A stretch of DNA of 64,000 nucleotides, from assembly GCA_032622095.1 (NCBI GenBank), contig CP136069.1, positions 124,949,450 through 125,013,449 of the forward strand. Direction: 5' to 3'. The position numbers and the translations under genes are program-made. This stretch comes from Siphonodentalium dalli (Eukaryota > Mollusca > Scaphopoda > Gadilida > Siphonodentaliidae). Shown in pieces: positions 37,551 through 63,995 of the stretch. The notes under the pieces were generated by a model. It had not been told where the DNA came from. It worked only from the letters and a program-made list of their open reading frames with translations, and did no database searches. How positions within the stretch are numbered: the first letter of the stretch is position 1; each line of letters opens with the position of its first letter.

Positions 37551-38107
37551 GGGTAATTTCTGAACATTCTTCAATTCATATAGCATTCTTATATACCCCC
37601 AGTACACATAAATAAAAATGTTGTTTATAATTAGGCCACATTGTATATTAAACAACCAATGTGAAGTGTTAGTGTTGGAACTTTTCTTATTAACATCTCT
37701 ATGCATAGCTCCGATATATTCCGCATACAAAGAAATGAAAAGTCAATATTTACAAACAGCACGAAGGAGTAACGTGGGAATTGGTTAATAAATACCATCC
37801 CAATTCATTTGGAATATAACATGCCGATATTTGTCTCGTATAACTAAATGAAAAAGTTCACTAAAACGATATTAAATAACATTTTAAACACCGATATAAA
37901 CACACACCGTCTAGGATTCATGTTCGAATTAAAGTTCTTATACAATCATCAAATCCCCGTGCAGTATAATAGTAGATAGCATTCCGATTTAATTCCGATT
38001 TAATTCACGCGAATTCCCGTTAGAATTAATCGGCTCGCACTTCTTGGCATGCTAATAACAAACCATGTGTCAATCATGCATGTCTCGAGAGACGCCCGCT
38101 GCATGAA

Positions 38108-39870: not shown

Positions 39871-40165
39871 ACGAACACGAGACATACATAATTTATAAAC
39901 TGTTAACAAAAGATATCAAATTCAATACATGACAAAGATGACTCAGTGGAGTTTATAAAGTGAACATAAAAACATTGAGGTAAGAATCTTTTTAAGGAAT
40001 GCAACTTTATTTAATGATAATAAACACATAAATTAAAATAACAAACATGAGACATACATAATTTATAAACTGTTAACAAAAGATATCAAACTCAATACAT
40101 GACAAAGATGACTCAGTGAAGTTTATAAAGTGAACATAAAAATATTAAGGTAAGAATCTTTTTAA
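39871..40165 (+). repeat. Two-copy tandem repeat, ~170 bp unit (Y1)
   Basis: The unit containing GAGACATACATAATTTATAA and GACAAAGATGACTCAGTG repeats once. The same array is at 50089-50383 in Y2. Confidence 0.85.
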
Positions 40166-41523: not shown

Positions 41524-41787
41524 ATGGCCATGAAACGTCACCGGAGTGTATATTTGATGGTTCTAGATACACAGGATGAAGTTACTTCGCATGATCACCT
41601 TCAAAATCGGTTGAATTTACCTCAATACAAACAACCAGTTTTGGCGGTGCAGATGAATGGGGTAGATGAAATACACGATGATGGTGTATATGAATCTAGA
41701 CTTGGTGGTGTCGAGGAACGTCGTGATATACTAATACAAATGGCCATAATCGAAAGCTGTCATCTTCATCCAGTTCTCAAGACATAG
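41524..41787 (+). CDS. Uncharacterised ORF restored in X2 (also X3)
   Basis: From the in-frame methionine after the poly-C run, the frame reads MAMKRHRSVYLMVLDTQDEV and ends in CHLHPVLKT. In X1 the same frame is broken by the fold-back insertion after VLAVQMN. X3 carries it at 51752-52015. No domain is recognised. Its neighbours are repeats, so it may be a retained exon or a chance frame. Confidence 0.25.
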   Translation: MAMKRHRSVYLMVLDTQDEVTSHDHLQNRLNLPQYKQPVLAVQMNGVDEIHDDGVYESRLGGVEERRDILIQMAIIESCHLHPVLKT

Positions 41788-42447
41788 CAGATGTACTAGA
41801 TGTATCTGCGATCCGGCTCAATTATGGACATGGATGTCGTGTCTTATCAGAATTCTACACCACAGTAGCTATTCCCGCCTGTCTAATATTAATGACGTGA
41901 TGTCACTTGCCTAATAATGACCACTAATTTGGAGAACACGAAAAATATCTTTTCTTTTATATTCTGGTAAATAAATTGAGAGAGAAAATTGTTCATTTGG
42001 ATGGATACCAGATATATCATGTTTCGGAAAACCAAAAACCCATAATATACGTTAGTATTGGAATAGGTTTGAAATTGAAATAATGAAACAAGCAGAAAAC
42101 CAAATTATATAATTGCCTCATAAGAAGTCATATTTGACCCCGACGTTGAGACAATCTACAGGGGAATGCGTGGTACAATAGGTATATAGATATAATATTA
42201 TTTCATGAAAAATGACCGGTTAATGCTCGATTAGATATGCATAATAAGCCACTCTAAACACCACAAGGATGTGTGATCTTAATGTAAATATAAACTCCAC
42301 ACTAAGATATTTTGGTCCTAAATTGGTAATGTTCCATGATAATGTATGTTTTGTGAATCAACTGAAGCTCTAGTCGAATGTCACATGGTATTCTTCTTAA
42401 AAATGATGCCTTAGCTACAATTAATAGACATATTGTATAATTAAAGC

Positions 42448-42660
42448 ATGGTTATGACACTCCATTGCAGGGGCAATCAATTCGATTTAGGAGAGCGCAC
42501 ACATCTCAAACGAAAACTTAAAAGTGGAAAAGTGTCACAGCCAGAGGGGCCAGCGAGAAACCCATTTCCTGTGAGAAAATTTCACCGTGTCCATGCAGGA
42601 ATGAAAAATATTTGCAGACATCAGGCGGGGATTAAACTTTCAGATATATATAAAGAATAA
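42448..42660 (+). CDS. 70-codon ORF, copy 2
   Basis: The same frame as at 36065, within X2. No recognised domain. Confidence 0.22.
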   Translation: MVMTLHCRGNQFDLGERTHLKRKLKSGKVSQPEGPARNPFPVRKFHRVHAGMKNICRHQAGIKLSDIYKE

Positions 42661-42827
42661 ACACACGATAGGTATAATATCTATTGCCCTTCCTGTTTAC
42701 CCCAACTCGTCGGAAAGAATGGTTATATACTCTGCATTTCGTGAATTCTTCTAAGGCTTATTTCGTTCCCCGTAAGGCATGCAATATTTCCAATGCTGTA
42801 CATTGATATATACAATAAGCCTTGGTA

Positions 42828-46984: not shown

Positions 46985-47214
46985 CACGCACTCTTAGCTT
47001 TGATCCGCATTTAGAAGCATTCTGGTGTGGCGAATGAGAAACCTGCAGTAATTTATAAGCCGTAGTTCATTGTAATAATTTGAAGAATTACTTATCTTAA
47101 CGGAATTCTGAGGCGGTCCATTCATGTAACCAATATATTTTATATTATGATTTATATTTATGGCTAATAATACGATCTTGGTGGCGTTACCATTTCTGAC
47201 TATGGTTTTCTTGT
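46985..47214 (+). repeat. R4 repeat fragment at the Y2 junction
   Basis: Carries TTTGATCCGCATTTAGAAGC, AACGGAATTCTGAGGCGG and TTTCTGACTATGGTTTTC, as at 15-16.8 kb. Y2 begins immediately after it, so an R4 copy borders the duplication breakpoint. Confidence 0.65.
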
Positions 47215-50200
47215 ATTGTATAGCGCAGGAAATTCACTCATGATATGACCTCTCATAAGGATTTATGAAAATACATGTATGGTTCCATGAGGGTAAATTA
47301 AAATATGGTCACACCCAGAGAGGGTTAATTGAAATATGGTCCGATGAGGGTAAATTAAAATATCACATCACGGTTTTAAAAAATATGGTCCTATGAGGGT
47401 TAATTGATATATGGTCTAATGGGGGATAATAAAAAATATGGTCACATGATGGTTAATTAAAATTGTACCCTGATTCTTAATTAAAATATGGTCACATGAG
47501 GGTTAATAAAAATATGGACCCATGGGGGGGGGGGGGGGGTAATTGAAATATGGTCCCATTGTGAGGGTTAATTAAAATTCAAGTATGATGTCATCGGTGT
47601 TTATTAAACTACGGTCCCACTGGGGTGAAATACAATATAGTCCCATGAGGGTCAATTAAAAATGGTCCAATGAGGACTAATTATAATAAGCACAGGGCTC
47701 CCCCATGAGGATCAATTAAAACATGGTCCCAGAAGGGGGGGGGGGGGTAATTTCTGAACATTCTTCAATTCATATAGCATTCTTATATACCCCCAGTACA
47801 CATAAATAAAAATGTTGTTTATAATTAGGCCACATTGTATATTAAACAACCAATGTGAAGTGTTAGTGTTGGAACTTTTCTTATTAACATCTCTATGCAT
47901 AGCTCCGATATATTCCGCATACAAAGAAATGAAAAGTCAATATTTACAAACAGCACGAAGGAGTAACGTGGGAATTGGTTAATAAATACCATCCCAATTC
48001 ATTTGGAATATAACATGCCGATATTTGTCTCGTATAACTAAATGAAAAAGTTCACTAAAACGATATTAAATAACATTTTAAACACCGATATAAACACACA
48101 CCGTCTAGGATTCATGTTCGAATTAAAGTTCTTATACAATCATCAAATCCCCGTGCAGTATAATAGTAGATAGCATTCCGATTTAATTCCGATTTAATTC
48201 ACGCGAATTCCCGTTAGAATTAATCGGCTCGCACTTCTTGGCATGCTAATAACAAACCATGTGTCAATCATGCATGTCTCGAGAGACGCCCGCTGCATGA
48301 AATAATAATGTAAACGACAATAAACGAAATTGAAATTCCCAACTACACCTTTTACCGGACTCGGCCTCGGGGGGTCGCACTACAACTTTTAATGTGTCAT
48401 AAAAATCCCCATTTCTATAAATAAAACGCCCATGCGTCCTTTGAATACCAAGAAACAGTAGCTCTGATTATACACCCGGATGGCGAAATAGCGTTATTTA
48501 AGGTGCACACACCACTCCGGATCGGACAGCATATACTGCACCAACGACAACATGCCTGGACAAATGTTGTAATGTGCCGGGGAAGTCGGCATTTGGCATT
48601 CAGTGGTTTCGAATGAGACTTTTCAGCCTGACAATCTTGGTATCTGAGAGTGTGGCACGGTGGACCATGGGGCCACGGTGGATTATTGGCTTTAAAAAAA
48701 AATCAGTTTGGAGGATATCCCTATATATGATGTCATCGGTGGGCCCCTATGTGTTGGTATCTGGATTTATAAGTCGGCTCCGCGCGAAGTCGGCCCCATA
48801 TGAAGATGGCCCTGAGCACGAGGTGGGAGTTGAATGAAGACTTAATGCGGCTTAATTTGACTGAGTTCTGATTTATGTTAGAATACCCACAGGGGCCTGT
48901 AACGCGCTCCGCTGCCATCCCCATTTTGCACTGCCCATATATACGCAGCCTCTATACGCGCCTGCTTCACGTTTATGGTCCTTATTAACACCACCGGTGT
49001 ATGCTGTGCTTGAGATTTTAGAAAGCTGTGGGCGCTGACATTAACAGTGGGTGTTTTATTTATAGAATGGGAAATTTCGGTTTATTTAAAAGTCGAACTA
49101 CGCGACCAGGAGGCCGAGTCCGGTAAAAGGTGTAGTTGGGAATTTCAATTTCGTTTATTGTCCTTTACATTATTATGTCAATAATGTTGAGTTTTGGTTT
49201 GTGACAAGCTATGTCAATTACCAATAAAAAAATTTAAAAGATAATTTGTAAGTCTTATATTTCAACTTTTATATATATTTTTCGTTCTGCAGCCCACTGA
49301 TGGTTGTGGTCGGAGACGGCCGATTCGGCCGCCGTTTCGTTAATTAGGTGCTGTTTGTTATTTCGGCCAATTTGGCCGTTTACTTCATGTCTGTTTTTCA
49401 TCTGACGTGTGTGTCGAATAAATGATGTGGAGGATTTATGTAAATGTTAGCCCAAACTACATTTCCAAGTAACGATGGTTTTGTTGTTTATTTTGAGGAC
49501 TAATACCGCGTCAGATGAATTCAGCCCAAATATGTTAACAGTTGTCGTGTAAAACATTCGGCAGTAGGTTAGCGTTATTTAGTATTTGTGGATGTCCTTT
49601 AACATGGGGAAAATAGACTACTGCGCTTGAACGAGCATGTGAATTTGTCGTTTTTAATGTATAGCAACTTGATAATCAATAACAGAGGCATTCTCTGTCA
49701 AATATGGTCGCTCTATTTACGGTATTAATTGCGGAACTTTCTAAAGTAAACTACGCGTAAACGGATACATACGGTAAATTATAGAAGGTGCCGGAATCGG
49801 CCTAATCGCCCCAGGGCCAACTCGCCCCAGTCGACGTGTGTCAATTCGGTACCTACTATAACATGTACCCGAGGATGAGTCCGGCTCGGAATAAAATATG
49901 TATACGGGTGTTATATAGCGTTTTGTCCGTTGTTTCTCAATGAATATTATTGAAATTTGGTGTATATGTCCGGGCTGGGACATGGAATACAACAACGTTT
50001 GAATTGTTTTTAAATTTACAAATTTGTTGATTTTATTAAAAAAAAAATTCGTTCTGAAAACACACTATAAAGTGTATATAATATAATAACGAACACGAGA
50101 CATACATAATTTATAAACTGTTAACAAAAGATATCAAATTCAATACATGACAAAGATGACTCAGTGGAGTTTATAAAGTGAACATAAAAACATTGAGGTA

Positions 50201-51631
50201 AGAATCTTTTTAAGGAATGCAACTTTATTTAATGATAATAAACACATAAATTAAAATAACAAACATGAGACATACATAATTTATAAACTGTTAACAAAAG
50301 ATATCAAACTCAATACATGACAAAGATGACTCAGTGAAGTTTATAAAGTGAACATAAAAATATTAAGGTAAGAATCTTTTTAAGCATTACCAAACCGTTT
50401 AGCACAGACTACAGTCCACTTCACTCATCCGATCATCACCAAACTTCATATTTATCTTGATATTGATCTATCAGATGAGAGCTATCAAATATTTTTTTAA
50501 TTTCATAGGAAAAAATGGTCGCCAGCGGCCATATTGCATTTACGTTATATGTTATCGCGTTATGTCGATATCTAGTATTACTTAGAAATTTCACCTTTCC
50601 AGATTCATAATTGCTCCATTGACTGTAACAGATGAAATTATTCCCCTCTTCGGATAGAGTGTCACTGAAACTTTATTTTGTCAGACTGTCTGTATAATCA
50701 CTGATTATATATGGCAATAATCTGTAATAAGATGTAGCACTATTTTATTTTATATTTACACGCATGCTGTTTTTATACAACAATTCGAATCCCCCCTAGA
50801 TCATCATGTGATCGACCATACATCGCGCGAGGACCTGGTTGAATGAAGGGGGGTTTTATGGATCACTTCTGTCCTCAAGCTAGATTATACTTATGACATT
50901 TAATGGCATTTTTCCTAACGTGGAGGGTTAGATATGCTTGAGAAACCACCACTCTTTAATTCACACCAAGTTCTCAGCTGTCATGAACCCATAGCCATGA
51001 TATATGGTTTATTTTATGTATACTAGTAATATAGTTATTTTCAGTACCTTTATATACCAGTACTGTGTATAACAATGCATATAAATTAATCAATGTATAC
51101 ATGTATATTGATTCAACGGATTCAGTGGTTTTGTCCATCAGTCTATCAAATTTGCGGGGAAAACATGGCCACAAGCAGTACACCCTGCTAAATTTCGAAT
51201 TTGAATCAATTGGCGCACCCTGCAGCCAGCTTTTATTGGAGAACTTTTTCTCATGTGGATATTTTGGGTCACCGCTAGATGTGAGCCATATTTTGTTCTC
51301 AAACTGTCCTTGTGAAGACATCACTGCCAGCGGTGATCTTCAATTTTACTATTTTTATGGCTAAATAATTTGGTTGATCCTACAGACGACACCCCTTGTC
51401 CGATCGTCACCATATTCCACAATGATCTTCTGGATAACCAGCGTGAGAGTAATCTAATTTTCCCGAATTTCGTTAAAAAACATTACCACAGGCAGCAATT
51501 TGGTATCTTACTCTTTGATCCTCTTTTGCATGACTGAATTGTTTAGCAACTGTACAGACATATCCCTCATCTGATAGTCACCAAACTTCATATTGATCTT
51601 CGGGCTGACAACTAGATGGGAGCTATCGAAT
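47215..51631 (+). repeat. Segmental duplication block Y, copy 2
   Basis: Near-identical to Y1 at an offset of about 10.2 kb. It keeps 24 bp (TCAATAATGTTGAGTTTTGG region, about 49177) missing from Y1 and has longer G-runs. It contains the same minisatellite, inverted-repeat segment and tandem pair. No confident gene. Confidence 0.85.
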
Positions 51632-52957
51632 GCTTTGATTTTTTTTTTTGGAGGGGGGGGGGGGGGGGGTACCCAAACCGAAGAAAACAGTTTTTTTCCA
51701 CCCTGTGTCTGCAGTTTTTTCCGCCCCCCCCCCCCGGTCAGGATGGTGTTAATGGCCATGAAACGTCACCGGAGTGTATATTTGATGGTTCTAGATACAC
51801 AGGATGAAGTTACTTCGCATGATCACCTTCAAAATCGGTTGAATTTACCTCAATACAAACAACCAGTTTTGGCGGTGCAGATGAATGGGGTAGATGAAAT
51901 ACACGATGATGGTGTATATGAATCTAGACTTGGTGGTGTCGAGGAACGTCGTGATATACTAATACAAATGGCCATAATCGAAAGCTGTCATCTTCATCCA
52001 GTTCTCAAGACATAGCAGATGTACTAGATGTATCTGCGATCCGGCTCAATTATGGACATGGATGTCGTGTCTTATCAGAATTCTACACCACAGTAGCTAT
52101 TCCCGCCTGTCTAATATTAATGACGTGATGTCACTTGCCTAATAATGACCACTAATTTGGAGAACACGAAAAATATCTTTTCTTTTATATTCTGGTAAAT
52201 AAATTGAGAGAGAAAATTGTTCATTTGGATGGATACCAGATATATCATGTTTCGGAAAACCAAAAACCCATAATATACGTTAGTATTGGAATAGGTTCGA
52301 AATTGAAATAATGAAACAAGCAGAAAACCAAATTATATAATTGCCTCATAAGAAGTCATATTTGACCCCGACATTGAGACAATCTACAGGGGAATGCGTG
52401 GTACAATAGGTATATAGATATAATATTATTTCATGAAAAATGACCGGTTAATGCTCGATTAGATATGCATAATAAGCCACTCTAAACACCACAAGGATGT
52501 GTGATCTTAATGTAAATATAAACTCCACACTAAGATATTTTGGTCCCAAATTGGTAATGTTCCATGATAATGTATGTTTTGTGAATCAACTGAAGCTCTA
52601 GTCGAATGTCACATGGTATTCTTCTTAAAAATGATGCCTTAGCTACAATTAATAGACATATTGTATAATTAAAGCATGGTTATGACACTCCATTGCAGGG
52701 GCAATCAATTCGATTTAGGAGAGCGCACACATCTCAAACGAAAACTTAAAAGTGGAAAAGTGTCACAGCCAGAGGGGCCAGCGAGAAACCCATTTCCTGT
52801 GAGAAAATTTCACCGTGTCCATGCAGGAATGAAAAATATTTGCAGACATCAGGCGGGGATTAAACTTTCAGATATATATAAAGAATAAACACACGATAGG
52901 TATAATATCTATTGCCCTTCCTGTTTACCCCAACTCGTCGGAAAGAATGGTTATATG
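51632..52957 (+). repeat. Segmental duplication block X, copy 3, truncated
   Basis: Near-identical to X2 until GAATGGTTATAT, after which X2 continues ACTCTGCATTTCG while this copy switches to GCTGCATAACGGCTGG. The switch marks either the left boundary of the Polinton-like element or a duplication breakpoint. Confidence 0.85.
52676..52888 (+). CDS. 70-codon ORF, copy 3
   Basis: The same frame as at 36065 and 42448, here only about 70 bp before the X3 break. No recognised domain. Confidence 0.22.
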   Translation: MVMTLHCRGNQFDLGERTHLKRKLKSGKVSQPEGPARNPFPVRKFHRVHAGMKNICRHQAGIKLSDIYKE

Positions 52958-53082
52958 CTGCATAACGGCTGGTTTGGGGGGTAAAGGTACATTATAGAAG
53001 TACATTGGAAGTATGGGTACATATTCTACTGCCCTATTGTCTTCCGACATCAAAGGAGATCAAAGGAAAGTACCCCGCCCCC

Positions 53083-53214
53083 GCACCGTATGACGTAACG
53101 ACGTTGTATGTAAACAAAGATCAAAGTACCACCGCCCCCGCACCGTATGACGTAACGACGTTGTATGTAAACAAAGATCAAAGTACCACCGCCCCCGCAC
53201 CGTATGACGTAGCG
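53083..53214 (+). promoter_or_regulatory. 2.5-copy tandem repeat with CRE- and TCF-like motifs
   Basis: A 54 bp unit repeats from about 53083. Each unit contains CGTATGACGTAACGACG, with a TGACGTAA core resembling CREB/ATF sites, and AGATCAAAG, resembling TCF/LEF sites, plus a CCGCCCCCGCACC GC box-like block. It lies about 300 bp upstream of the first plus-strand gene. An enhancer/promoter role is inference; the repeats could also be part of the terminal repeat. Confidence 0.55.
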
Positions 53215-53518
53215 ACGCGTGGGTGTTTGAGTATACGCGTGTGTGTATTTGTATACGTCACGGTTGTGTGGGGGGTCCTTCTGTATATGGATGTGTACTT
53301 CGTGGGTGTGGCTATTTGACAATGGTCGTATACGCTTTCGGGCCCTTGAGAACTGTACAATGGGCAATCGTATACTTCCGTCATCGAAGTACGTCGTGTA
53401 TACTGTTCATCAGGTACGAAGTATATTTGACAATGATGGTGTACCCCCGCGGGTGTATCCCTCAGGTGTGCTTATCAAGAATTAATAAGGATGATCCAAG
53501 TACCTCTGCGTTATAACC
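53215..53518 (+). promoter_or_regulatory. 5' region of the plus-strand cluster
   Basis: Rich in GTATAC words and two TATTTGACAATGRTSGT-like copies (about 53312 and 53428). It probably holds the start region for the membrane-protein/TBP/integrase genes. No protein-coding frame here is convincing. Confidence 0.4.
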
Positions 53519-53755
53519 ATGGACAGTGATCATACTTCGGAAAAGTGGCAGTTAATGGGTCACAAAGTCCCCAGATCCGAAATAGTTTATTTCTGTCAAA
53601 TTATCATTCTGTACACCATCATAATCACGTCTATCGTCAATTTATCTATAGGACACGAGGCATCGACATTATGGACTAGTCTCCTTTCGTCATCGGCGGG
53701 GTATCTATTACCAGCTCCTTATATACGTAAAAGCGTCACATCTGCGGCGGTATAA
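53519..53755 (+). CDS. Small membrane protein of the Polinton
   Basis: 78 residues: MDSDHTSEKWQLMGHKVPRS, a hydrophobic helix (about 24-46, IVYFCQIIILYTIIITSIV) and a second apolar stretch (about 52-68, WTSLLSSSAGYLLPAPYI). It has no signal peptide. The pattern (MGHKVPRSEIVYFCQ ... LLSS..GYLLP.P) resembles small membrane proteins I recall beside F54H12.2-type capsid genes in invertebrate elements. A role in membrane association or particle assembly is only a guess. It ends 35 bp before the TBP-like gene. Confidence 0.65.
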   Translation: MDSDHTSEKWQLMGHKVPRSEIVYFCQIIILYTIIITSIVNLSIGHEASTLWTSLLSSSAGYLLPAPYIRKSVTSAAV

Positions 53756-53790
53756 AGAAAGAATGTGATACAGCTTCGTGTCATTTATCA

Positions 53791-54306
53791 ATGATGGTAC
53801 GTATAACGAACATCGTGTGTTCCAGCCACTTAGGTTATGCTGTCAACATAGTTGGCTTAGCGGAGTCATTGTGTAATGTGATATATCAGAGAGGATTCAT
53901 AATGTGGAAGCACCGTTCCATAGGTGGTTGCTGTTGGATTTATAACACGGGAAAAATAATGTGTATGGGTGCAGCATCGCACGTCCAGGACGGTAGGAAT
54001 AGACTGAGAAAGTACGCCAGAATCATTCAAAAAATGGGTCATCATGTGCGATTGTCACAAGTGCGAATAGTGACAATGTCTGCGGTACACAAGTGCGGTA
54101 AATTATCAGCAGAGGCCATCGTGCGATACATGGACGGTAAATACCATCCGGAAATCTTTCCGGCAGTCACCTTCTATGAACGAGGCATCCACTTCGCTTG
54201 CCACATGAGCGGCACAGTGCTAATAACGGGCATTAAGAAACCGTGTCAGCTTAATAACATCGTGCATCCGAAAATATTGGAGTTGGAGTGCTGTTGCCAT
54301 GGATGA
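53791..54306 (+). CDS. TATA-binding-protein-like transcription factor
   Basis: 171 residues with the two pseudo-symmetric halves of the TBP saddle. Half one has ITNIVCSSHLG (5-15), TGKIMCMGAAS (53-63) and RKYARIIQKMG (73-83), counterparts of TBP's SGK.V.TGAKS and RKYAR..QK.G blocks. Half two has VRIVTMSAV (91-99), YHPEIFPAV (118-126) and SGTVLITGIKK (140-150), matching YEPELFPG and SGK.VLTGAK. Length fits the ~180-residue core. TBP bends TATA DNA and nucleates transcription initiation. By eye, the four DNA-intercalating phenylalanines appear replaced (Tyr, His, His, Val), so DNA recognition may differ. The start could also be Met2. Its last 8 bases overlap the integrase start. A host TBP paralogue captured by the element is the simplest origin. 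Confidence 0.8.
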   Translation: MMVRITNIVCSSHLGYAVNIVGLAESLCNVIYQRGFIMWKHRSIGGCCWIYNTGKIMCMGAASHVQDGRNRLRKYARIIQKMGHHVRLSQVRIVTMSAVHKCGKLSAEAIVRYMDGKYHPEIFPAVTFYERGIHFACHMSGTVLITGIKKPCQLNNIVHPKILELECCCHG

Positions 54307-55372
54307 ATATCTGCAATCGTTATATTATGATCCGGGCAAGCCGGGGAGTTTCGGAGGAGTCGAAAAGCTGTACGAGGCTGTCAAAGCGGAGGGAACACGC
54401 TCTATAAGCCGCAAACAAATTCGTGAATGGTTAAGCTCGCAAGAAACTTACTCGCTGGTTAGACCAGCCAGGCGTAAATTCCCCAGGAGCAGAGTGATCG
54501 TCGAGGGAATCGATTCAATGTGGGATGCCGATTTGGCAGATATGACGGCTTCTGGTAGTCGTTACAAATATATTTTGGTTATTATCGACGTATTTTCAAG
54601 ATTCGCTTGGTGTCGCTCGTTGTTAAAGAAAGATGCCAAACACGTCGGTGAGGCATTCTCAGACGTGTTCGGAGCACAAAGCCGTAAACCGAAAATTCTA
54701 CGAACTGATAAGGGGACAGATTTTAACTCTAGACCCGTGCAAAGAATACTTAAAGAACGAGGAATCAAATACTTATCAACGGAGAACGAAACTAAAGCGA
54801 ACTACGCAGAGAGACTGATAAAGACTTTGAAAACCAAGATATACAGATACCTAGTTCACAACAACGTACTCGATTATTCCGAGGTTTTGCAGGCTGTGGT
54901 AAATAGCTACAATAATACTGTTCACAGATCCACCGGTTTCACACCCGTATCGGTTAGCACGGACAACGAATCGGAAGTGCGTTATGAACAGAAAAGACTT
55001 CTAGGGCATAAACAACCAAAGTTGAAAAAGTATAAGTTGAAAGTCGGCGACAGGGTGCGAATATCCCACGTTAAAGACGTGTATGACAGAGAATTCTACA
55101 AGAAGTGGACTGGTGAAATTTTCGCGATAGTTCGGCGATACAGAAGAGGTGGTGTCAACGTTTACAAGTTGTCTGATTGGAACGAAGAAGATGTGACAGG
55201 CTCATTTTATGAACAAGAATTACAGTTGGCGACGATCAACTCTGACACTTTATACAGAATAGAGAAAGTTCTAAGGAAAAACAGAGGGAAGGTACTCGTT
55301 AGGTGGCTTAATTGGGGGCCAAAATACGATTCTTGGATACCCGAAATTGACCTAGTTAAATACGGACAATGA
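54299..55372 (+). CDS. Polinton integrase with C-terminal chromodomain
   Basis: 357 residues. An N-terminal helical region (1-60) is followed by an RNase H-like DDE core: Asp78 in WDADLADM, Asp137 in LRTDKGTDF and Glu171 in KANYAERLIKTLK. Then comes an SH3-like basic region (KLKVGDRVRIS, about 255-266) and a chromodomain-like tail (YRIEKVL, KVLVRWLNWGPKYDSWIPE). The enzyme would insert the linear element into host DNA; the chromodomain would bias it towards modified histones. The ATG lies within the TBP-like frame, and the stop codon shares ATGA with the next gene. All catalytic residues are present and the frame is intact. Confidence 0.93.
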   Translation: MDEYLQSLYYDPGKPGSFGGVEKLYEAVKAEGTRSISRKQIREWLSSQETYSLVRPARRKFPRSRVIVEGIDSMWDADLADMTASGSRYKYILVIIDVFSRFAWCRSLLKKDAKHVGEAFSDVFGAQSRKPKILRTDKGTDFNSRPVQRILKERGIKYLSTENETKANYAERLIKTLKTKIYRYLVHNNVLDYSEVLQAVVNSYNNTVHRSTGFTPVSVSTDNESEVRYEQKRLLGHKQPKLKKYKLKVGDRVRISHVKDVYDREFYKKWTGEIFAIVRRYRRGGVNVYKLSDWNEEDVTGSFYEQELQLATINSDTLYRIEKVLRKNRGKVLVRWLNWGPKYDSWIPEIDLVKYGQ

Positions 55373-55758
55373 GGCTATATATTTCCAGTGATAAATATCA
55401 AGTATATTTTCCAGACAATGAGGCCGGTGATTTTACTTTACCTCTACCATCGAACTTGCATTTGAATAGCGAATGGACCGTCACCTTGGAACAAATATCT
55501 ATGAAACCAAAACCACATAACAGAATAATTTACGTATGCTGCGATATTTGTCAAGATTCTAGACTGCCAACACACTCATTGCAGGTCCTAAGGGCTATAT
55601 ACGAGGATGTCGCGGGAGATTTCACCGGAGGTATCCCAATCCCTGTCGCAGGAGGACCTTCAAACTTTATAAGGATCTATCTGCTGGATGAGAATTTGAG
55701 AAGAATAGAAATTGATTCATTGGATTGTTGCTTGTTACTCAGCGATGGTCGGGACTAG
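55369..55758 (+). CDS. Penton-like minor capsid protein candidate
   Basis: 129 residues, beta-rich: LYISSDKYQVYFPDN, FTLPLPSNLHLNSEWTVTLE, IIYVCCDICQDS and SNFIRIYLLD. This layout (short N terminus, LP..L.L...W.V.L, YVCC.IC.DS, late I.IYL) is what I recall of the single-jelly-roll minor capsid candidates next to F54H12.2-type capsid genes. Start and preceding stop overlap as ATGA. The 3' end overlaps the start of the basic-protein frame. It is shorter than many pentons, so a partial fold is possible. Confidence 0.65.
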   Translation: MRLYISSDKYQVYFPDNEAGDFTLPLPSNLHLNSEWTVTLEQISMKPKPHNRIIYVCCDICQDSRLPTHSLQVLRAIYEDVAGDFTGGIPIPVAGGPSNFIRIYLLDENLRRIEIDSLDCCLLLSDGRD

Positions 55759-56032
55759 ATATTATTACGATACGGTGCACAGAGTGTATCTGCCGATGGT
55801 GTCCAGCAAAAAGGGTGTGACAAAAGTGAAACCTAATCTTCGGAAAAGTAAGGTCACTAAGAAGAAAATAAAACCTAAAAAAGGTGGAAAAATGAACAAA
55901 TCTCTGAAGCGCGAAAAAAAAAACCACAACCAACCAGGGCGGTTCATGAAGAAGTCAAAAGTTATAAGGGGAAACAGACCCCCGGATGTTTTTGATAAAA
56001 ATGGAAAAGCTACCCATATTCGGAGAAGTTGA
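55745..56032 (+). CDS. Lys/Arg-rich basic protein, possible core protein
   Basis: 95 residues from MVGTRYYYDTVHRVYLPMV, then a long lysine-rich tract (KKKIKPKKGGKMNKSLKREK) and KSKVIRGNRPPD. About 30% Lys+Arg. It overlaps the minor-capsid frame by 14 bp and the major-capsid frame by up to 47 bp. Charge and position suggest a DNA-condensing core protein analogous to small basic core proteins of adenoviruses; sequence similarity is not claimed. An upstream start at 55712 is possible but lies deeper in the other gene. Confidence 0.55.
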   Translation: MVGTRYYYDTVHRVYLPMVSSKKGVTKVKPNLRKSKVTKKKIKPKKGGKMNKSLKREKKNHNQPGRFMKKSKVIRGNRPPDVFDKNGKATHIRRS

Positions 56033-57221
56033 AGAAGACTGGCACGCGCATAAAGAATGGATGGAGTTCAACCCCACAACAGCCATTACAGAAAACTCGC
56101 CCATAGAATTTTATATACCAGGGACATCTAATGATTATGTCGATTTAAGAAGCAGTACTCTCAGTGTCAAAATCAAAATAGTTAATGATGACGGAACGGC
56201 ATTGGCTTCAGCATCGAAAGTCGGTCCTATTAATATGCCTCTTTCGTCCATATTTAGTTCCGTCAATATGGAATTACAGCATACACCCGTTGGATCCCTA
56301 GGTCCTTATTATCCGTATAAGGCATATCTCGACACGTTACTGGAGTCAACAGAGACGCAACTACGCCATACCTTTTCCGAACGGATATTTGAAAAGGACA
56401 GAGCAGAACATATGGATTCAACTATACTAAATTTGGGCCTAATAACGAGAAAAGAGTATTTCGAGGACAACGCTATCGTGTCAATGTCAGGACCGATCAG
56501 CCATGACTTGTGTCAACAGGGACGCTACATGTTGAATGGAGTTCCAGTCAAAATAACATTATGGCCTGGTAAAAATGACTTTTGTTTAATGAGTGCTGAC
56601 ACTACTCCCAAATACAAAATGAAGATAACCGAAGCTAAATTTAAAGCGTGTTTCGTCAAAATAGAAAATGGGACTGATGTGGAAAGAAAACTCACTACAA
56701 AAGACGCTATCTACCCGTACAGAAAGTCGGTCATTAAAGCTTTCTCTGTTTCCAAAGGGGCATTCAACTTCACAGCGACTAATGTGTTCCAGAATGATGT
56801 TCCACAAAGGGTTCTTATAGTAATTACAGAGGCTGAGGCGTTGAATGGCAGCTACACCAAGAATCCGTTCAATTTTAAACATTATAATTGCAGTCATCTG
56901 GCATTTACGGTGGATGGTCAATCTGTACCTAGTCGACCCCTAAATATGAACTTTAAAAAGGACGACTATATGGAAGCATACCACAACTTGACAAGTGCCT
57001 TCCCCCACTTATCTATCAATAGAGAATCTTATAAAGAAGGTTTCACCATATTCTGCATCGAGCCTTACGGAGAAAATGTTGCGTCTGTCAATAAAGGATT
57101 AGTGCAACTAGACATGAGGTTCAGTGAAGCTCTGCCAGAAACTGCAGTCATCTTAGTTTACGGAACTTTTCCAGCACATTTGACGGTCGATAAAGACAGA
57201 AATGTATTTCTTCCAATGTAA
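55986..57221 (+). CDS. Major capsid protein candidate (F54H12.2-like)
   Basis: 411 residues from the first ATG, or 406 from a second at 56001. Conserved blocks are HKEWMEFNPTTAITENSPIE, FYIPGTSNDYVDLRSSTLSV, INMPLSSIFSSVNMELQHTP and YYPYKAYLDTLLE, the typical order of invertebrate proteins named after C. elegans F54H12.2. Those are found in Maverick elements and interpreted as double-jelly-roll major capsid proteins. It is shorter than many Polinton capsid proteins but complete in this family. A polyadenylation-like AATAAA lies at about 57268. It is the last gene of the plus cluster. Confidence 0.8.
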   Translation: MFLIKMEKLPIFGEVEEDWHAHKEWMEFNPTTAITENSPIEFYIPGTSNDYVDLRSSTLSVKIKIVNDDGTALASASKVGPINMPLSSIFSSVNMELQHTPVGSLGPYYPYKAYLDTLLESTETQLRHTFSERIFEKDRAEHMDSTILNLGLITRKEYFEDNAIVSMSGPISHDLCQQGRYMLNGVPVKITLWPGKNDFCLMSADTTPKYKMKITEAKFKACFVKIENGTDVERKLTTKDAIYPYRKSVIKAFSVSKGAFNFTATNVFQNDVPQRVLIVITEAEALNGSYTKNPFNFKHYNCSHLAFTVDGQSVPSRPLNMNFKKDDYMEAYHNLTSAFPHLSINRESYKEGFTIFCIEPYGENVASVNKGLVQLDMRFSEALPETAVILVYGTFPAHLTVDKDRNVFLPM

Positions 57222-57612: not shown

Positions 57613-57798
57613 TCATTTGGGAAGTTGCAGCCATTTGGACTTTATGAGTCCTCTTCTTATTCCGGGCGGAGAAGGTGGCCTATTCACAGTTTCTTCCTGA
57701 GGCGGTTCACTTTCGACTTTCGAATCCTCTCCACATTTTTTCACCAAATTTTGATATTTCTCTAATGGTATCAGAATATTTTTGCCGAAAGTGGCCAT
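57613..57798 (-). CDS. Small conserved-type Polinton protein, 61 aa
   Basis: It starts MATFGKNILIPLEKYQNLVK and continues with an acidic/Pro-rich middle (ESEPPQEETVNRPPSPP) and a basic end (GIRRGLIKSKWLQLPK). The I.IP.EKY..L beginning recalls small proteins downstream of the ATPase in invertebrate elements. Its start overlaps the previous stop as TAATG. Function unknown. Confidence 0.55.
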   Translation of the reverse strand: MATFGKNILIPLEKYQNLVKKCGEDSKVESEPPQEETVNRPPSPPGIRRGLIKSKWLQLPK

Positions 57799-58106
57799 TA
57801 TAGTTCTCGCAATGGAAGATTTTTCAACAATGCAGTCACTGCCTCCGGTCTTCTTTGCAACAGTTGCTTCTTTCTACGAACACCTATTTCTGAACTAGAT
57901 AATCCTCTATACACGTCTTTGTAGGGTTCCAAACTTTCAATATTTGAAACTGGTAACACATCAAACAGAAAGTTTAAACAAATTTCGGCGATGCTTCTAA
58001 CTTGATCATAAGTCACGGAACGTAATATAGCTGACACTTGGTTTTTAGTCTTACTGGAAGACAATATAAACATAAAATCAATGTTTCGTTTGACGAGTTC
58101 GCTCAT
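57798..58106 (-). CDS. Small helical basic Polinton protein, 102 aa
   Basis: A helical frame: FILSSSKTKNQVSAILRSVT, RSIAEICLNFLFDVLPVS, YRGLSSSEIGVRRKKQLLQR and AVTALLKNLPL. I recall the pattern (a leucine-rich start, a middle ..CLN.L.., and a basic K..LLQR end) from proteins encoded beside Polinton ATPase genes across invertebrates. The start lies 2 bp after the ATPase stop and the end overlaps the next start. Function unknown; a virion or assembly role fits the location only. Confidence 0.6.
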   Translation of the reverse strand: MSELVKRNIDFMFILSSSKTKNQVSAILRSVTYDQVRSIAEICLNFLFDVLPVSNIESLEPYKDVYRGLSSSEIGVRRKKQLLQRRPEAVTALLKNLPLREL

Positions 58107-58108
58107 CC

Positions 58109-58759
58109 TTATAATTTTTTGTATATGATGGGATATTCTCCGGGAAAAATGTCAGTTCTCACACGGAGTTCTTGTTCCGTATTAGGAGTTGTGTCAACAA
58201 CTAAATAACCGTACTGTCTGTCCAAAACTGCATCCTTATAACTATCACTCAGAAAATGAGATTTTCCTGGAAAGAGTTGCTGTCCCAAATATTTCACCTG
58301 ATTGGCATCTCGAACGTTCTTCAAAAGAATGAGATATGAACTGTTCAAAGCTATAGTTCTAGCGTGACGTCCTTTCTGAAATTGGTTTTGAGTTAAAAAT
58401 AAAGTTGTTAGGCGACGATGGTGACAGCCTTGCGTAAACAAACATTCCATTTCTGAACTGTCTAGCACCTTATGGGCTAGATCATCCAGAATAATCATAG
58501 AGGGTGTCCCGTCTGCAAACACATCCAAGGTTTCTACCATAGGTAGCCCTTTGTGAAAAGTTATATTCGGAATAACTCGCTCCATTTCGTGGAACAGCCG
58601 TTGATCGACACCGTAACAATACAAAATTTTCTGAGGGTATTCTCCCGAAATCATTTGTTGTAAATTTTGCAAGAATCGAAATGTCCATCGCGTTTTTCCA
58701 GATTTGGTGGCACCGGACACCATGTAGCTAGAATCCGGTTCAAAAGGTATTAGTGACAT
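58109..58759 (-). CDS. FtsK/HerA-type genome-packaging ATPase
   Basis: 216 residues with Walker A GATKSGKT (16-23), Walker B SMIILDDL (Asp92-Asp93) and a downstream TTLFLTQNQFQKG sensor-like segment, as in A32-type packaging ATPases of Polintons and related dsDNA viruses. It would pump the element's DNA into capsids. All nucleotide-binding residues are present and length is normal for Polinton ATPases. It sits 70 bp downstream of the polymerase stop and 2 bp upstream of the next gene. Confidence 0.9.
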   Translation of the reverse strand: MSLIPFEPDSSYMVSGATKSGKTRWTFRFLQNLQQMISGEYPQKILYCYGVDQRLFHEMERVIPNITFHKGLPMVETLDVFADGTPSMIILDDLAHKVLDSSEMECLFTQGCHHRRLTTLFLTQNQFQKGRHARTIALNSSYLILLKNVRDANQVKYLGQQLFPGKSHFLSDSYKDAVLDRQYGYLVVDTTPNTEQELRVRTDIFPGEYPIIYKKL

Positions 58760-58829
58760 GACTGATGTGAATTTGAGAATTTTACATCCTTATAACTATC
58801 AACGAAATTTGTTCCGGAGGTATACAATC

Positions 58830-59248
58830 TTAAAAACCGAAGGGTAATGTGTCAAGGTTTTCTTGTAAAACACGTTTCGTATACACGATGCTGTACTCCT
58901 TGTCCTGTTTCTGATTATATAGTAAGGGCCTGCGGCGACTTCTATTGATTTTATTTTCAGTGATGTACACTTTGCAGTGGTCGTTTAGATCATTCTCAGC
59001 CTTCCTTTTTCTGTTAATCAAAGTGTCCATCACCGAAAAGTTTATCTTCGTCGCGTTCACGTGGTTCAGAGTAAACCCTCTGACCTTACACACTTCCTTG
59101 TTGTTAGTGGTCTGATAGGCATAGTTTTTAGGACCACCACTCCGGAATTTTGTTATGGAATGTCCATCGAGCTCGTCCGTCAGATCACCGAGGTAGTCAC
59201 CAGTCTGAACGGTAGGGCCTCCCGGTCTTTCCACGTAGATGACAGAAT
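58830..59248 (-). CDS. POLB exon 8: DS of motif C to C terminus
   Basis: Acceptor TACATTGCAG, phase 1. Completes the second Asp of motif C and encodes SVIYVERPGGPTVQTGDYLG, FRSGGPKNYAYQT, VCKVRGFTLNH and the end VLQENLDTLPFGF. Confidence 0.9.
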
Positions 59249-60602
59249 CTGCAATGTAAGCATATAATATAAGCTTCGACATAGCCACAATGTATTTAGC
59301 GTTAACATAAGCTTCGACATAACCACAATGTATTTAGCGTTAACCTTCGTCGCCCCGTGATGTACTTAATTGATTACTCACCAGTGTCAAAGTAAAGAAC
59401 GTTTTCTCCAAGGTGTTCCAGAACGTCGTACAATTTGAGACGAGCCCAAGCAGTCGTTAGACTCGCTATAAATACGTTCGTCTTGTCATCAGAGGGAATG
59501 AAGTGTCGGTCGTATACGTATGACAGCTGAATGTGGGTGTCGTTGATGATGTGAAAGTCTTTCACGTGTTTTGTGGAGTCCGAAATCAAACTGAAAAACT
59601 TTTCTGGCTCACTGTCGTGTATGATATCACTTTGAGACATGTTCAACCTCTCTCCGAATTTTCCCCTGAAATATGAAACATAAAATATAATATCACATCA
59701 TTTTTTTTAAAATTTTATTTTTCTCGTTTTTTTATATACGAAAACTTACTTACCAAAGGACATTTAGCATCATTTTTGAAGTGGCTCTTAGTGCGGGTGC
59801 TTTCCTTACGCTGGCAGGATCCAGCTGTATACCTTCCACACTAGCGTAGTCCGCTACGTAACGCTCCTTGTCACTTTCGGTTTCGACCCAAGCTGGCCAA
59901 CCACTCGCTTCCTGTTTCAACTTTAAGAACCTGTAATGAGAAATAATGAATAATATTGTGATAATGTATGAGCCCCCCGCTAACCCGAACCTAATAAAAC
60001 CCTCGTACAAAAAAAGGGAGGGAGGGGGGCGCGCGCGCGCTTTTTGGTTTAATTTTTTTTTTAAAACTAACCTATTGACGTATCCGGAGAAGAGACCTCC
60101 ACTTTTGCTTTCTTTGTCGTATTGGGTGGTTTCTTCCCAGTTGTATACTTCATATATTTTCACCACAGCGTATCCTTTGTCGAGAGCTTTGACTATTTCG
60201 CATGTGGTCCAACAGCCAGTGAGTGAACGATCTGTGTCATCGTGCTTACAAACAGTCTGTAACCTTTCATCCACACAACTCCGACACAAAGGGAACGTGA
60301 GCTTGCCACCTGAACGGTACGGTAATACACCGTGGTACAGTCCACGAGGAGGCAACACTTTCACCGACGCTAGCCCGAAATATTCACGAATATCGCTGAA
60401 GTCACTGGTGATGATTTGAGGATGTTTGGAAACCATCTTGGCTGTCTTATTGATAAAGGGGTATAATGATGTAAAGTCAACATATTTCACCTTCTCCCCC
60501 GGCTGCACATCATACGCCAATTTGCAGGCGTTAGTTCTACCTGAAATAATTTTATTTGAATTTTATTTTGAATTTATTTTGAATTATTTTGAATAATTTA
60601 AA

Positions 60603-60633
<31 letters not shown>

Positions 60634-63600
60634 TTTTGGAGACAAATTATACTCACAACTTATATATTTCCTACTTGAAAACATATCTTTTTAATTGTTT
60701 TTGAATTATTTTGAATTAATTTTGAATTAATTGAATTAATTTTGAATTATTTTTTATTTTGATAAAAATGTGAAAATTCATACTCACCACCGAAAAATGA
60801 GTCACGTGGCTTCAGACGCGGTTGTACGTCCAGGCTCTCCACATAATCCCTCACATCAATGTCATCTTTCAATAGCTTGTCAAACGTGTGTTCCCAGATG
60901 CATACGTACTTGAACCCTGCTTCTTTCAAGAAATTTCGCTTCTTTATAGTTAAAGCGTGCAATTCACTCAGGGACTGTTTAGTGAGTGGATGTTTCGTGG
61001 TGTCACGGTTCAGAGGATGGCACGTAGGGCACGCGTGATAAAAGCAACCTAAAAATAGAAAGGAGTGAATATGTATTCGTGTAAAACCAAAAAATGTTGT
61101 GTGACAACAAAAATAAATGAAATAAATATACATACCGTGGAATTCAAAGCAAGTGTTGGTGTTGTGACAGAATCCATCCACTTTGTATCGACTGTTTGGT
61201 ATCTTGTACTCTCCATTGTGCAGAGCGTGATCTATTTCCAAGCCTTTTTTGTGTGACAGCCAGCATAGCCATTGAATTGATTTTTGGGAATACTGGTCAG
61301 ATTCACGATCTGAATCCACTTTAGCTATGGGTGTGCTGACAAACTTCCCTTCAGATATCTTCATCCCACGAGCATTCAGGAAAGCTTTAGTAACCCACGC
61401 ACCGTCATACAGTATGCTGCACACACCATTTACTTTCTTCATGGGTACATCTTTCAACACCGTAGCGTCTTTCTTTTCGATGGATATTTTATATGTTTCC
61501 TCCAAGAACAACGTTTTATAGGCGTTCATACATGCCGAGCTTATGGTAACAGACTTGAAAGGATCGACTGCACCTTCAGTCACCTCCATGAATAACGCTC
61601 GAAATTTTAAACAAGCCTGTCTGAGAATGTCCACATCGGAGATGCAATAAGCACGAATTTCTTTTCTAAAATTGAAAATTTCTTCAGATTTTCCAGCGTG
61701 CCATTGCAGGAATTTTTCTCTCTCCGAAGGTGACATCGTATCTGGGCCATAATACGCGGCATCGGGGTAGCGTCCCACATAATCTTGGTTGGCTGCGGTG
61801 TTGAAAAAGTGGCAAAAATACCCTGCAAAATAAATTAGACATATACATACGGCGTAAATATGAAAAATATCTTACAACAAAACCCACCTTTATGTAACTT
61901 ACGCAAATCAAAGGATTTCGAGAGTGTGGTCAGTAGCATAGACAATAAGTTGAAGCTGCGCAGCACTCAGAATTCCGAAATGGGGTTTTAAATACATTAT
62001 TTTGGACCTTGAATTTATTTCCCCCCTATAAATATGAAACATATCTTACACCAAAACTCACCTTTATGCAACTCACGCAAATCAAAGGCTTTCGGGAGTG
62101 CAGCCAGTCGCATCGCCAAGAAGTTGAAGCTGTCCATCACCCGAATTCCGAAATGGGTTTTTAAATACATTATTTTGGATCCTGAATACAGGATCCTCGT
62201 TGGTCGTACACCTTGGAACACCAAATATTCGAGCAGCAGGATGGAATCGTACGCCTTGCCATTATGGCTCATGACTGTGTAATACTTGTGAGCGTCCGTA
62301 AACAACCAAAGTCCAAATGTATTCAATGTATGCGTTCCACTGGCTATAAACTGGCGACGTCCGCATCCGTCACAAGGTGCATTCTTGAAAGAACCTTGCT
62401 TGTTCCTGGCATCACAAGCGTTACAACGACTTCCACAATTAGCACATTGCGAATCGGCATCCACAGGTTCCTTGGAACAGGACTCACAGGCCGAATGTGC
62501 GACAACCAGATTAGGGGTGTGTCTATTTAACCCGCACTGTGGAAGCTTGCAGTCTATACATCTGCAATGAAAATCGAAGTGATACATAAATGCCTAATAA
62601 CGTTAATGTCACTTAATACATTATAATGCGCCTGAAGAATCATCAATGATAAACACAACGCCATTCCATAGTTGTTTCCTAAAAAAATGTTAAAAAAAAA
62701 CAACCTTACCTGCGACATTTTGAACATCTTTCATCTTCTGAACAAGTATCCCGGCACGGTGGACCCCTTTTGTAGCCTGTGTCACATTGGAAAAGTTCAT
62801 TCTGCGTGCACTCGAAATCAAAGAATATAAATTTGTGGTCGCTGGGTGTAGGTCGTACACAGGGTCTCAAATAACACAGATGTTGTCCCGTCACCAATTC
62901 GCCGCATGAAGAACACATCCATTCACCGCAAATATGTGGATGTTTTTCCATATTTCGTTTGATGATGTTTATAACTTTTTTACAGGTGATACATTTGTGG
63001 TAAGTATCACATTGTGAATTGCCATTTTGAGGAGTCATTCGATGTCTGTTGAAACACTCGAGACCGCGGCATGTAATGTGGCATTTTTTGCATGACAGTT
63101 CATCAGCCACTTTGCAACCTGCGGTCTTACAATTTATGCAATAGTCATCGCAAGAATGATCCTCTCTGTTATTGTAAGGCTTTAGACAGGTTTCACAGAA
63201 ATAACTTTGACGAAAGAATCCGCAGATAGATACAATAGGGGTGAAATGAGTTTGTTCTTGATAATACACGTAAATATTCCTTTCATACTTGTTGCTGCTT
63301 CTCACTATTTTATTTCCAACTTCCGCACTAATTAGTACCAGATTAATATTGAAATACTCTTCAAAAAGTGGAATGTCACTCAAATCACCGGGCCTATTTG
63401 TTGGTATATTCAGTTCTCTCAAAACTCGGTAGGTGGTGGTTCGTTGAGTACTTCTTTCTGACTTTGTCAGCTCCTTGTAGTTGCAACGTGTGATTTTGTG
63501 ATGTTCTAAAAAAATGTCAGCCGCACTTTGATGAGGATATTGAAGTTTTAAATCCTCATCTGCTATAAATAGTTTAGCTGCGGCTATCACTATGGATCTC

Positions 63601-63995
63601 GCCAAACAGGTGTTGTCCTTGTTCTTTATATAGACCATAGATTTTTTCTTTAGAACATCATTATCACATAGTATGGGTCGCGTGCCACCCCCTGAGCCTC
63701 TCGGTTTACGTATAGATCCTACTGTAACGTTAAATGTTCTATCCAACGATAAACTTTCTTGAGAACTCAGGACGTTGGCTACACGATCCATAACCATCGT
63801 GGGAGTGAGATGTTTCCACTCTGTTAGTTCTACCACGATGGGTCTGTTCAGTTGAACCGTTTGTATAACAACCCGGCCGAGATCTTCATCATCCCTATCG
63901 CCTCTGGCTTTATACAGCACATCTGCGAACATTCGTTCCAACTCCTCCCGTAAGTCTGAAAGTCTCTCAGTATACCACCGCTCATTAAAGGTCAC
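58830..63995 (-). CDS. Polinton family-B DNA polymerase, eight exons
   Basis: Exons: 62710-63995, 62062-62561, 61136-61822, 60788-61048, 60072-60540, 59754-59930, 59382-59665 and 58830-59248. All seven introns are GT-AG and every junction keeps frame, giving about 1,360 residues. Residues 1-380 hold an N-terminal domain and Cys-rich Zn-binding region. Exonuclease motifs: FFDFECTQNE (~391-400), SHNGKAYDS (~528) and YCISDVDIL (~655). Polymerase motifs: A, YVDFTSLYP (~931); B, SKMMLNVLWGKFGE (~1119); C, YFDTDS (~1218). It should replicate the element, probably by protein priming as in other Polintons. The first ATG is 5 bases from the window edge, so the true start may lie outside. Confidence 0.92.
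59270..59345 (-). repeat. 40 bp tandem duplication in POLB intron 7
   Basis: AGCTTCGACATARCCACAATG-type units ending TTTAGCGTTAAC occur twice, directly beside the exon 8 acceptor. Confidence 0.8.
59382..59665 (-). CDS. POLB exon 7: from GKFGE to the DT of motif C
   Basis: Acceptor CATATTTCAG, donor GACACTG|GTGAGT, phase 2 to 1. Encodes GKFGERLNMSQSDI through ENVLYFDT. Confidence 0.88.
59754..59930 (-). CDS. POLB exon 6: palm motif B, first part
   Basis: Acceptor TCATTACAG, donor TTTG|GTAAGT, phase 2 to 2. Encodes FLKLKQEASGWPAW to KMMLNVL; the intron splits the Trp codon before GKFGE. Confidence 0.88.
60072..60540 (-). CDS. POLB exon 5: palm motif A
   Basis: Acceptor TTATTTCAG, donor AATAG|GTTAGT, phase 1 to 2. 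Encodes RTNACKLAYDV, YVDFTSLYPFINKTAK and FPLCRSCVDERLQTVCKHD. Reading through the donor gives artefactual extra residues. Confidence 0.88.
60601..60634. repeat. (A)n(TA)n tract in POLB intron 4
   Basis: A poly-A run followed by about twelve TA units, in an intron rich in TTTTGAATTA repeats. Confidence 0.9.
60788..61048 (-). CDS. POLB exon 4
   Basis: Acceptor CTATTTTTAG, donor GGTG|GTGAGT, phase 1 to 1. Encodes CFYHACPTCHPLNRDTTKHP to RLKPRDSFFGG, a Cys/His pair region preceding the palm. Confidence 0.85.
61136..61822 (-). CDS. POLB exon 3: exonuclease motif III and linker
   Basis: Acceptor TATTTTGCAG, donor CACG|GTATGT, phase 1 to 1. Begins YFCHFFNTAANQDYVGRYPD, includes YCISDVDIL and DGAWVTKAFLNARGMKISE, and ends FCHNTNTCFEFH. 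Confidence 0.88.
61875..62005 (-). pseudogene. Decayed duplicate of the POLB exon 2 end, inside intron 2
   Basis: CACGCAAATCAAAGGCTTTC in exon 2 reappears as TACGCAAATCAAAGGATTTC about 170 bp away, followed by diverged versions of the exon's last ~130 bp, including AATTCCGAAATGGGGTTTTA and CATTATTTTGGACC. It has substitutions and no matching splice frame, so it appears to be a dead tandem copy left in the intron. Confidence 0.75.
62062..62561 (-). CDS. POLB exon 2: zinc-ribbon pairs and exonuclease motif II
   Basis: Acceptor TTCATTGCAG, donor AAAG|GTGAGT, phase 2 to 1. Contains CANCGSRCNACD, PCDGCGRRQF, then SHNGKAYDSILLLEYL and MDSFNFLAMRLAALPKAFDL. Confidence 0.88.
62710..63995 (-). CDS. 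POLB exon 1: N-terminal and Cys-rich domains, exonuclease motif I
   Basis: Donor CGCAG|GTAAGG, phase 2. Contains DNTCLARSIVIAAAKL, FTPIVSICGFFRQSYFCETC and many paired cysteines, ending soon after FDFECTQNE. The 5' side may extend beyond the window. Confidence 0.88.

Follow-up and report, generated by a model that had tools for sequence, protein, structure and literature searches.

A TATA-binding protein gene carried by a Polinton lineage of the scaphopod Siphonodentalium dalli, with an accompanying class of promoter-like TATAAGG motifs

The stretch of DNA considered here (the window) comprises 64,000 nucleotides of contig CP136069.1 of the scaphopod mollusk Siphonodentalium dalli (assembly GCA_032622095.1, positions 124,949,450 to 125,013,449), and it contains a Polinton-type mobile element carrying its own gene for a homologue of the TATA-binding protein (TBP). 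Both members of the Polinton/Maverick hallmark pair, a retroviral-type integrase (INT) and a family-B DNA polymerase (PolB), are present in the element. Related elements recur across the host genome and were sorted in this analysis into six families, F1 to F6, with the window copy belonging to F1. The TBP gene of this Polinton lineage is present in many copies, is under selection, and is accompanied by a class of promoter-like motifs.

A first-pass annotation, made from the letters alone, had read an intact 171-codon frame of the element as a two-lobed TBP homologue, and profile and structural comparisons bear this reading out. The frame was matched by the Pfam TBP profile PF00352 in two stretches (E = 7.6e-17, 61.4 bits, cut-off 22.9), as were all 12 element members tried, and plain phmmer matched it to human TBP chains at 1.1e-10. 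An AlphaFold (AF2) model built with a 26-sequence alignment, which included archaeal and viral TBPs, reached a mean confidence (pLDDT) of 94.5, with a single-sequence run reaching 39.6 only; with the alignment, a pseudo-symmetric two-lobed saddle is predicted. The first 44 structural matches of the model in the PDB were all TBPs by Foldseek, and the best matches by both Foldseek and VIA were TBPs, with 169–170 residues aligned. It is thus nearly certain that the frame encodes a true TBP-fold protein. The features of the element and its left boundary are as follows.

52950..52969, no strand assigned: left boundary of the element, at about 52956, placed by F1 copy boundaries and host repeat divergence
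53484..53490, + strand: AATAAGG, a one-base variant of TATAAGG, about 35 bp before the 78-residue ORF
53519..53755, + strand: MEM78, small open reading frame (ORF) of 78 residues, putative membrane protein, with homologues upstream of TBP in F1, F2, F4 and F5
53751..53756, + strand: TATAAA box, 40 bp upstream of the start codon of TBP
53791..54306, + strand: TBP homologue, 171 residues (intact frame, TBP profile, predicted fold)
54299..55372, + strand: INT, retroviral-type integrase (rve, E = 7.2e-13; chromodomain match below cut-off)
55369..55758, + strand: ORF129, with homologues in F1–F6
55668..55674, + strand: TATAAGG inside ORF129, its three codons identical in six F1–F5 representatives
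55745..56032, + strand: ORF95
55963..55969, + strand: TATAAGG, 23 bp upstream of the first ORF411 ATG
55986..57221, + strand: ORF411, large conserved ORF, presumed capsid protein ("F54H12.2-type" being the label of the first-pass annotation)
57798..58106, − strand: ORF102, conserved
58107..58113, − strand: TATAAGG abutting the ORF102 start codon
58109..58759, − strand: P-loop protein resembling a packaging ATPase (its Pfam matches, like those of its F2 and F6 homologues, are all below cut-off)
58788..58794, − strand: TATAAGG, 35 bp upstream of the start codon of the ATPase-like gene
58830..63932, − strand: PolB, several separate ORFs, broken or intron-bearing, running past the window end

The motifs in this list were read from the sequence, and ORF129, ORF95 and ORF102 from the ORF map; ORF names were assigned in this analysis, and the split PolB frames were left unmended. 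The left edge was placed at about 52956. F1 copies elsewhere begin to match at 52955–52956 in five of seven cases, the remaining two doing so at 52950 and 53123, and the surrounding host repeat has two uninterrupted copies that part from the window at 52959. Neither the right end of the element nor terminal repeats were found, and the left 1.1 kb had no match in the 5.7 kb starting just inside the window end. The DNA_pol_B_2 profile was matched at 2.1e-07 in the window and at 2.9e-41 in F6, an adenovirus-type protease match was seen in F6 only, just below the Pfam cut-off, and a profile of ORF411 found no relative in the PDB. Two repeats were also observed: a tandem repeat of 2.7 copies of a 57 bp unit close to the left end, at 53067–53217, and a 5.7-kb duplication, 99.1% identical, at 37022–42731 and 47211–52959, the second copy of which is cut by the element.

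Searching the host genome (2.23 Gb, nine contigs) with the TBP gave 433 candidates, of which 150 scored as matches; 141 of these contain no in-frame stop, although some are partial. By identity to the window TBP, F1 stands at 92–100%, F2 with its subgroups F2b and F2c at about 58–65%, F3 at 53–55%, F4 at 46%, F5 at 41–43%, and F6 at 45–47%. Among 16 mapped loci, the order TBP–INT–ORF129–ORF411 on one strand is shared by F1–F5; MEM78 precedes TBP except in F2b and F3 (no homologue was found at the F2b locus L101 or the F3 loci L106 and L107), ORF95 occurs in some loci only, and ORF102–ATPase is present wherever the stretch reaches that far, with some copies truncated or decayed. The possibility of a chance frame was ruled out by the PF00352 and phmmer matches and by this recurrence at 100–41% identity. 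Of the two outcomes that the first-pass annotation had named as refuting its reading, namely the lack of a significant TBP profile or structural match, or a frame missing from all related elements together with stop codons in other copies, neither was observed.

The position of the gene relative to the integrase is equally recurrent. Of 3557 candidates in an integrase search, 114 were scored, 106 of F1–F5 type (54–100% identical) and eight of F6 type (46–47%). In five families the gene lies just upstream of INT, at 103 of the 106 F1–F5-type matches: 90 have a listed TBP at most 144 bp upstream by coordinates, and inspection of 13 further loci found TBP upstream in all 13, several decayed or partial. 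At the integrase fragment C6:86420802, TBP lies 0.9 kb upstream, and fragments C6:86405845 and C4:12502209 are left out of the count. In the window the two frames overlap by 8 bp, as had been noted (INT starts at 54299 and TBP ends at 54306), and among the 90 listed pairs there are 69 in which the TBP match runs 4 bp past the start of INT.

In F6, the gene is separated from INT and is flanked on one side by a PC4 gene (PF02229, 9.3e-15) and on the other by a protease-like gene. For four of the eight F6-type integrases, an F6-type TBP is listed at a distance of up to about 5 kb, and for C7:173926484 one is listed at 3.2 kb. A PC4 gene is also found upstream in F3 (2.7e-18). The ORFs of this PC4-type transcriptional coactivator lie beside TBP at L112:3600-4211 (F6) and near it at L106:3881-4387 (F3), and PC4 is a second captured transcription factor. 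At locus L114 (C2:85769500-85778500), the F6 TBP block occurs three times head to tail at a spacing of about 2.77 kb. Furthermore, a search of the host genome for human-TBP-like sequences returned at least 149 F6-like matches (32–34% identical to human TBP), 148 of them free of in-frame stops, which suggests that F6-like copies have multiplied recently; the matches listed in a TBPL1 search were likewise taken up by F6-like copies. Several F2 and F5 elements form inverted, palindrome-like pairs about 6–11 kb apart (C3:112391282/112402712, C6:8204940/8215326, C6:118372411/118379618, L104 and L111), and in F4 and F5 elements an IAP-like ORF with BIR and RING domains lies upstream of MEM78 (L108:5022-5645 and L110:3544-4014), with TATAAGG at −36 of the F4 copy.

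In a tree rooted at its midpoint and containing long branches, the eight element TBPs included form a single clade (100/100) in which F6 is the first branch (99/94); the proposed comparison with cellular TBP and TBPL1 places them in a group of their own. TBPL1 appears as a long branch among cellular TBPs; a closer kinship of the element proteins to TBPL1 than to TBP, considered on the basis of bit scores (58.9 vs 57.4 and 51.6), is not shown by the tree. The host's own TBP is a separate gene on C6 with at least three exons, over which it is 89–92% identical to human TBP, and its partial sequence falls with the human and yeast proteins in the tree, outside the element clade. The simplest history is a single acquisition of the TBP gene, earlier than the separation of F6 from F1–F5, followed by its retention. 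The ratio of nonsynonymous to synonymous divergence (dN/dS, Nei–Gojobori) is 0.16–0.32 in all 15 F1 pairs and 0.13–0.35 in the 13 of 28 between-family pairs with unsaturated dS, the most reliable being F4–F5 (0.25, at a dS of 1.03). Young pairs inside other families, which hold very few changes, gave scattered values up to 1 and above (maximum 3.0). The element TBP is under purifying selection. With profile, structure, synteny and selection in agreement, the assignment of the gene to the Polinton-type element stands, and it is an old, selected gene of this lineage.

The surfaces of the protein were compared by aligning element TBPs, including 12 members, to yeast TBP, using the yeast numbering of the four DNA-intercalating phenylalanines (F99, F116, F190 and F207) and of E188. 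The first-pass annotation had proposed an apparent loss of these phenylalanines. This holds in part: in the window copy F99 is lost with a three-residue deletion in the first stirrup, F116 is Tyr and F207 is His, but F190 is kept (one Phe of four), and F6, the most distant family, has Phe at all four positions. Across F1–F5, F99 is gone through the three-residue deletion, F116 is replaced by Tyr (Phe in F3), F190 is Phe (Ile in F3), and F207 is His or Tyr. In contrast to this DNA side, a Glu at the E188 position (E121) is invariant in all 12 aligned members, and helix 2 of the window copy, RKYARIIQK, is exactly that of yeast; helix 2 is the face for TFIIIB, TFIIA and NC2, and the faces to which TFIIB and other cofactors are known to bind are kept in the element proteins. 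As far as the alignment can tell, then, the DNA side is changed in F1–F5 and the cofactor faces are kept. Because TBP family membership is defined by profile and fold, the loss of phenylalanines would lower canonical TATA binding and not the case for homology. Altered DNA recognition is plausible, given the changes at three of the four positions in the window copy and the existence of a TATAAGG motif class.

That motif class emerged from the regions upstream of the element genes in one representative each of F1, F2, F2b, F3, F4 and F5. The commonest 7-mer is TATAAGG, present in 21 of 41 non-TBP windows of 150 bp, with a dinucleotide-shuffle expectation of 0.67 and a top count of 11 for any 7-mer in 200 shuffles. 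It lies within 150 bp in 19 of 22 windows of ATPase, ORF411, ORF102, MEM78 and IAP, in two of nine of ORF129 and ORF95, and in none of 16 of TBP, INT, PolB and PC4, a split by gene that was made after the motif matches had been seen. Within 75 bp, it precedes 15 of the 22 genes of the first group (0.21 expected; the most frequent 7-mer over 1000 shuffles reached 7). Conversely, all six representatives have TATAAA before the TBP gene, at −36 to −44, and none of those 22 windows has it at −30 to −60, demonstrating a difference between gene classes; a decayed F1 copy (L100/L116) is without the TATAAA box at its TBP gene. In the window, TATAAGG occurs at 6.3 per 10 kb in the element (seven sites) vs 0.57 per 10 kb in 53 kb of host DNA (three sites). 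The site inside ORF129 is read as TTT ATA AGG in all six representatives, and these codons make up three of only four identical columns among the 29 with a constant amino acid (7 of 128 in INT), which points to selection on the DNA itself.

Taken together with the residue changes, these motif classes suggest a two-step programme of expression. First, the host's TBP and RNA polymerase II (Pol II) would activate the TBP gene from its canonical TATAAA box. The early product, with its changed DNA saddle and conserved cofactor surface, would then bind TATAAGG before the ATPase, the presumed capsid gene and other genes, and would seat host TFIIB and the polymerase there, giving rise to a late phase. 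Recruitment of host RNA polymerase to the element's own promoters is, we infer, the best-supported mechanism, and the whole account, in which the element TBP is an early product directing Pol II to TATAAGG late promoters, is judged moderately probable. The first-lobe deletion is suggestive because TATAAGG and TATAAAA differ at their 3′ end, the part of a TATA box faced by the first TBP lobe. The fuller version, in which a two-phase programme with host TBP at TATAAA and a remodelled element TBP at late promoters of capsid and packaging genes evolved apart from that of herpesviruses, is put forward more tentatively, as a proposal about as likely to fail as to hold.

Several observations weigh against this account. 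Of the 15 sites within 75 bp, eight lie at −34 to −56, one at −66, and six at −7 to −23, and these last are too close for a −30 box unless a later ATG is used. The shuffle and Fisher figures overstate significance, because the families are related and not independent trials and because the gene grouping is post hoc. The ORF102 matches at −134 to −140 fall in ATPase codons, F2b has TATAAGG within 75 bp in neither of two windows, and two of the seven sites of the window element are not in front of a gene. The F5 TBP gene carries TATAAA in one of five loci and TATAAGA in the other four, and the early/late split is therefore not clean. At four F6 loci examined there is no TATAAGG, and the F6 TBP gene has no TATAAA within 150 bp; ATAAGA, the top 6-mer, lies upstream of six of ten F6 genes, which is not above the shuffled maximum of 7. 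Since F6 keeps its four phenylalanines and, although without TATAAGG, has ATAAGA upstream of some of its genes, phenylalanine loss does not map simply onto the motif, nor does the first-lobe deletion.

Some of these same observations lend themselves to a different explanation, in which the TBP and TATAAGG are unrelated. TATAAGG would then be an initiator-like start site for another factor, comparable with the late start motif TAAG of baculoviruses, and the element TBP would substitute for or boost host TBP at ordinary TATA boxes. The six sites at 7–23 bp before the annotated ATG are spaced more like start sites than like a −30 box, F6 with all four phenylalanines could read a normal TATA, and F5 TBP genes mostly carry TATAAGA themselves. 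We nevertheless consider this explanation less likely than the first, though it is the strongest competitor: the eight sites at −34 to −56 stand near the spacing of the TBP-gene TATAAA boxes, and among the ORFs scanned, a part of all ORFs, no polymerase subunit or promoter factor was found except PC4 in F3 and F6.

A role for the TBP in guiding integration, by tethering the integrase to host promoters, or in sequestering host TFIIB, TFIIA or TBP-associated factors (TAFs) is improbable. The retrotransposon Ty3 does use TFIIIB for integration targeting, and both the overlap of the TBP and INT frames and the nearly unchanged helix 2 would fit. Against it, ARAGORN in its bacterial setting detected no tRNA gene in the window or in 23 loci, some of which include little flanking DNA. 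In addition, the window copy is inserted in a repeat, and F6 keeps its TBP apart from INT. Finally, although animals do have TBP paralogues, a host paralogue or processed host copy lying in the element by chance is refuted by the separate multi-exon host gene outside the element clade and by the recurrence of the element TBP just upstream of INT at 103 places.

For the account of an element TBP acting at TATAAGG, the motif class provides a testable role, with a 7-bp box and a 171-residue protein as its handle. The families also constitute a natural experiment in changing TBP specificity, with F6 keeping all four of the phenylalanines that wedge into DNA and F1–F5 not. The account bears on Polinton gene expression, a little-known subject, and on the question of whether and how these elements form virus particles. 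If true, the account would add a further DNA virus lineage with its own TBP, apparently separate from the herpesviruses.

The first-pass annotation knew of no TBP described in Polintons, and none was found in what was consulted of the open-access literature, to which the search was confined, subscription papers and the adintovirus paper lying outside its scope. Word searches in three papers on Polinton-like viruses, Polintons and Mavericks returned no mention of TATA or TBP, and among the matches listed for TATAAGG and promoter none concerned Polintons by title. The nearest report, from an algal genome study, is of TATA-binding proteins occurring sporadically in elements of putative mirusvirus origin. 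Scans of a viral contig collection gave no relatives of the element; with cellular TBPs as query, they yielded 12 TBP loci, by look mostly archaeal-like, among which L002 is eukaryote-like, with L008 giving the same match figures. No match was found by tblastn against phages or, for the element TBP, in PHROGs.

Compared with known systems, the element resembles Polintons/Mavericks and adintoviruses in its rve integrase and family-B polymerase and, less securely, in its packaging-ATPase-like gene and, in F6, an adenovirus-type protease match. Its TBP shares with the human and yeast proteins the two-lobed saddle, the helix 2 sequence RKYARIIQK and the glutamate at the E188 position, but differs in being only 24–27% identical, encoded in one uninterrupted frame and carried by mobile elements. 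TBPs are also borne by nucleocytoviruses, which generally have their own RNA polymerase, and by mirusviruses. The BFVD structural matches include proteins of Heterosigma akashiwo virus and Terrestrivirus, and 35 such matches at E ≤ 0.001 are 6–21% identical to the element TBP and mostly longer. In one survey, a TBP gene cluster is present in 59% of mirusviruses and in 0% of Nucleocytoviricota (PMC10132985).

The closest parallel in way of working is with UL87, ORF24 and BcRF1 of beta- and gammaherpesviruses, which likewise combine a virus-encoded TBP fold with host Pol II and a variant late box (TATT there, and TATAAGG here if the present account is right). ORF24 of Kaposi's sarcoma-associated herpesvirus (KSHV) is a TBP mimic reading TATTWAA at late promoters, keeps and needs the four phenylalanines, is without the TFIIB-contacting glutamates, and forms part of a six-protein complex (PMC12529657), and UL87 of human cytomegalovirus (HCMV) binds TATT and Pol II (PMC8360532). 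Unlike ORF24, the F1–F5 proteins consist of no more than a TBP core, and their pattern of phenylalanines and glutamates is almost the opposite. The ORF24-type fold matches the element TBP weakly (BFVD rank 49, E 4.5e-3), and the likeness between the two would be one of operation: a TBP-fold protein of the virus or element that brings host Pol II to a late box of its own.
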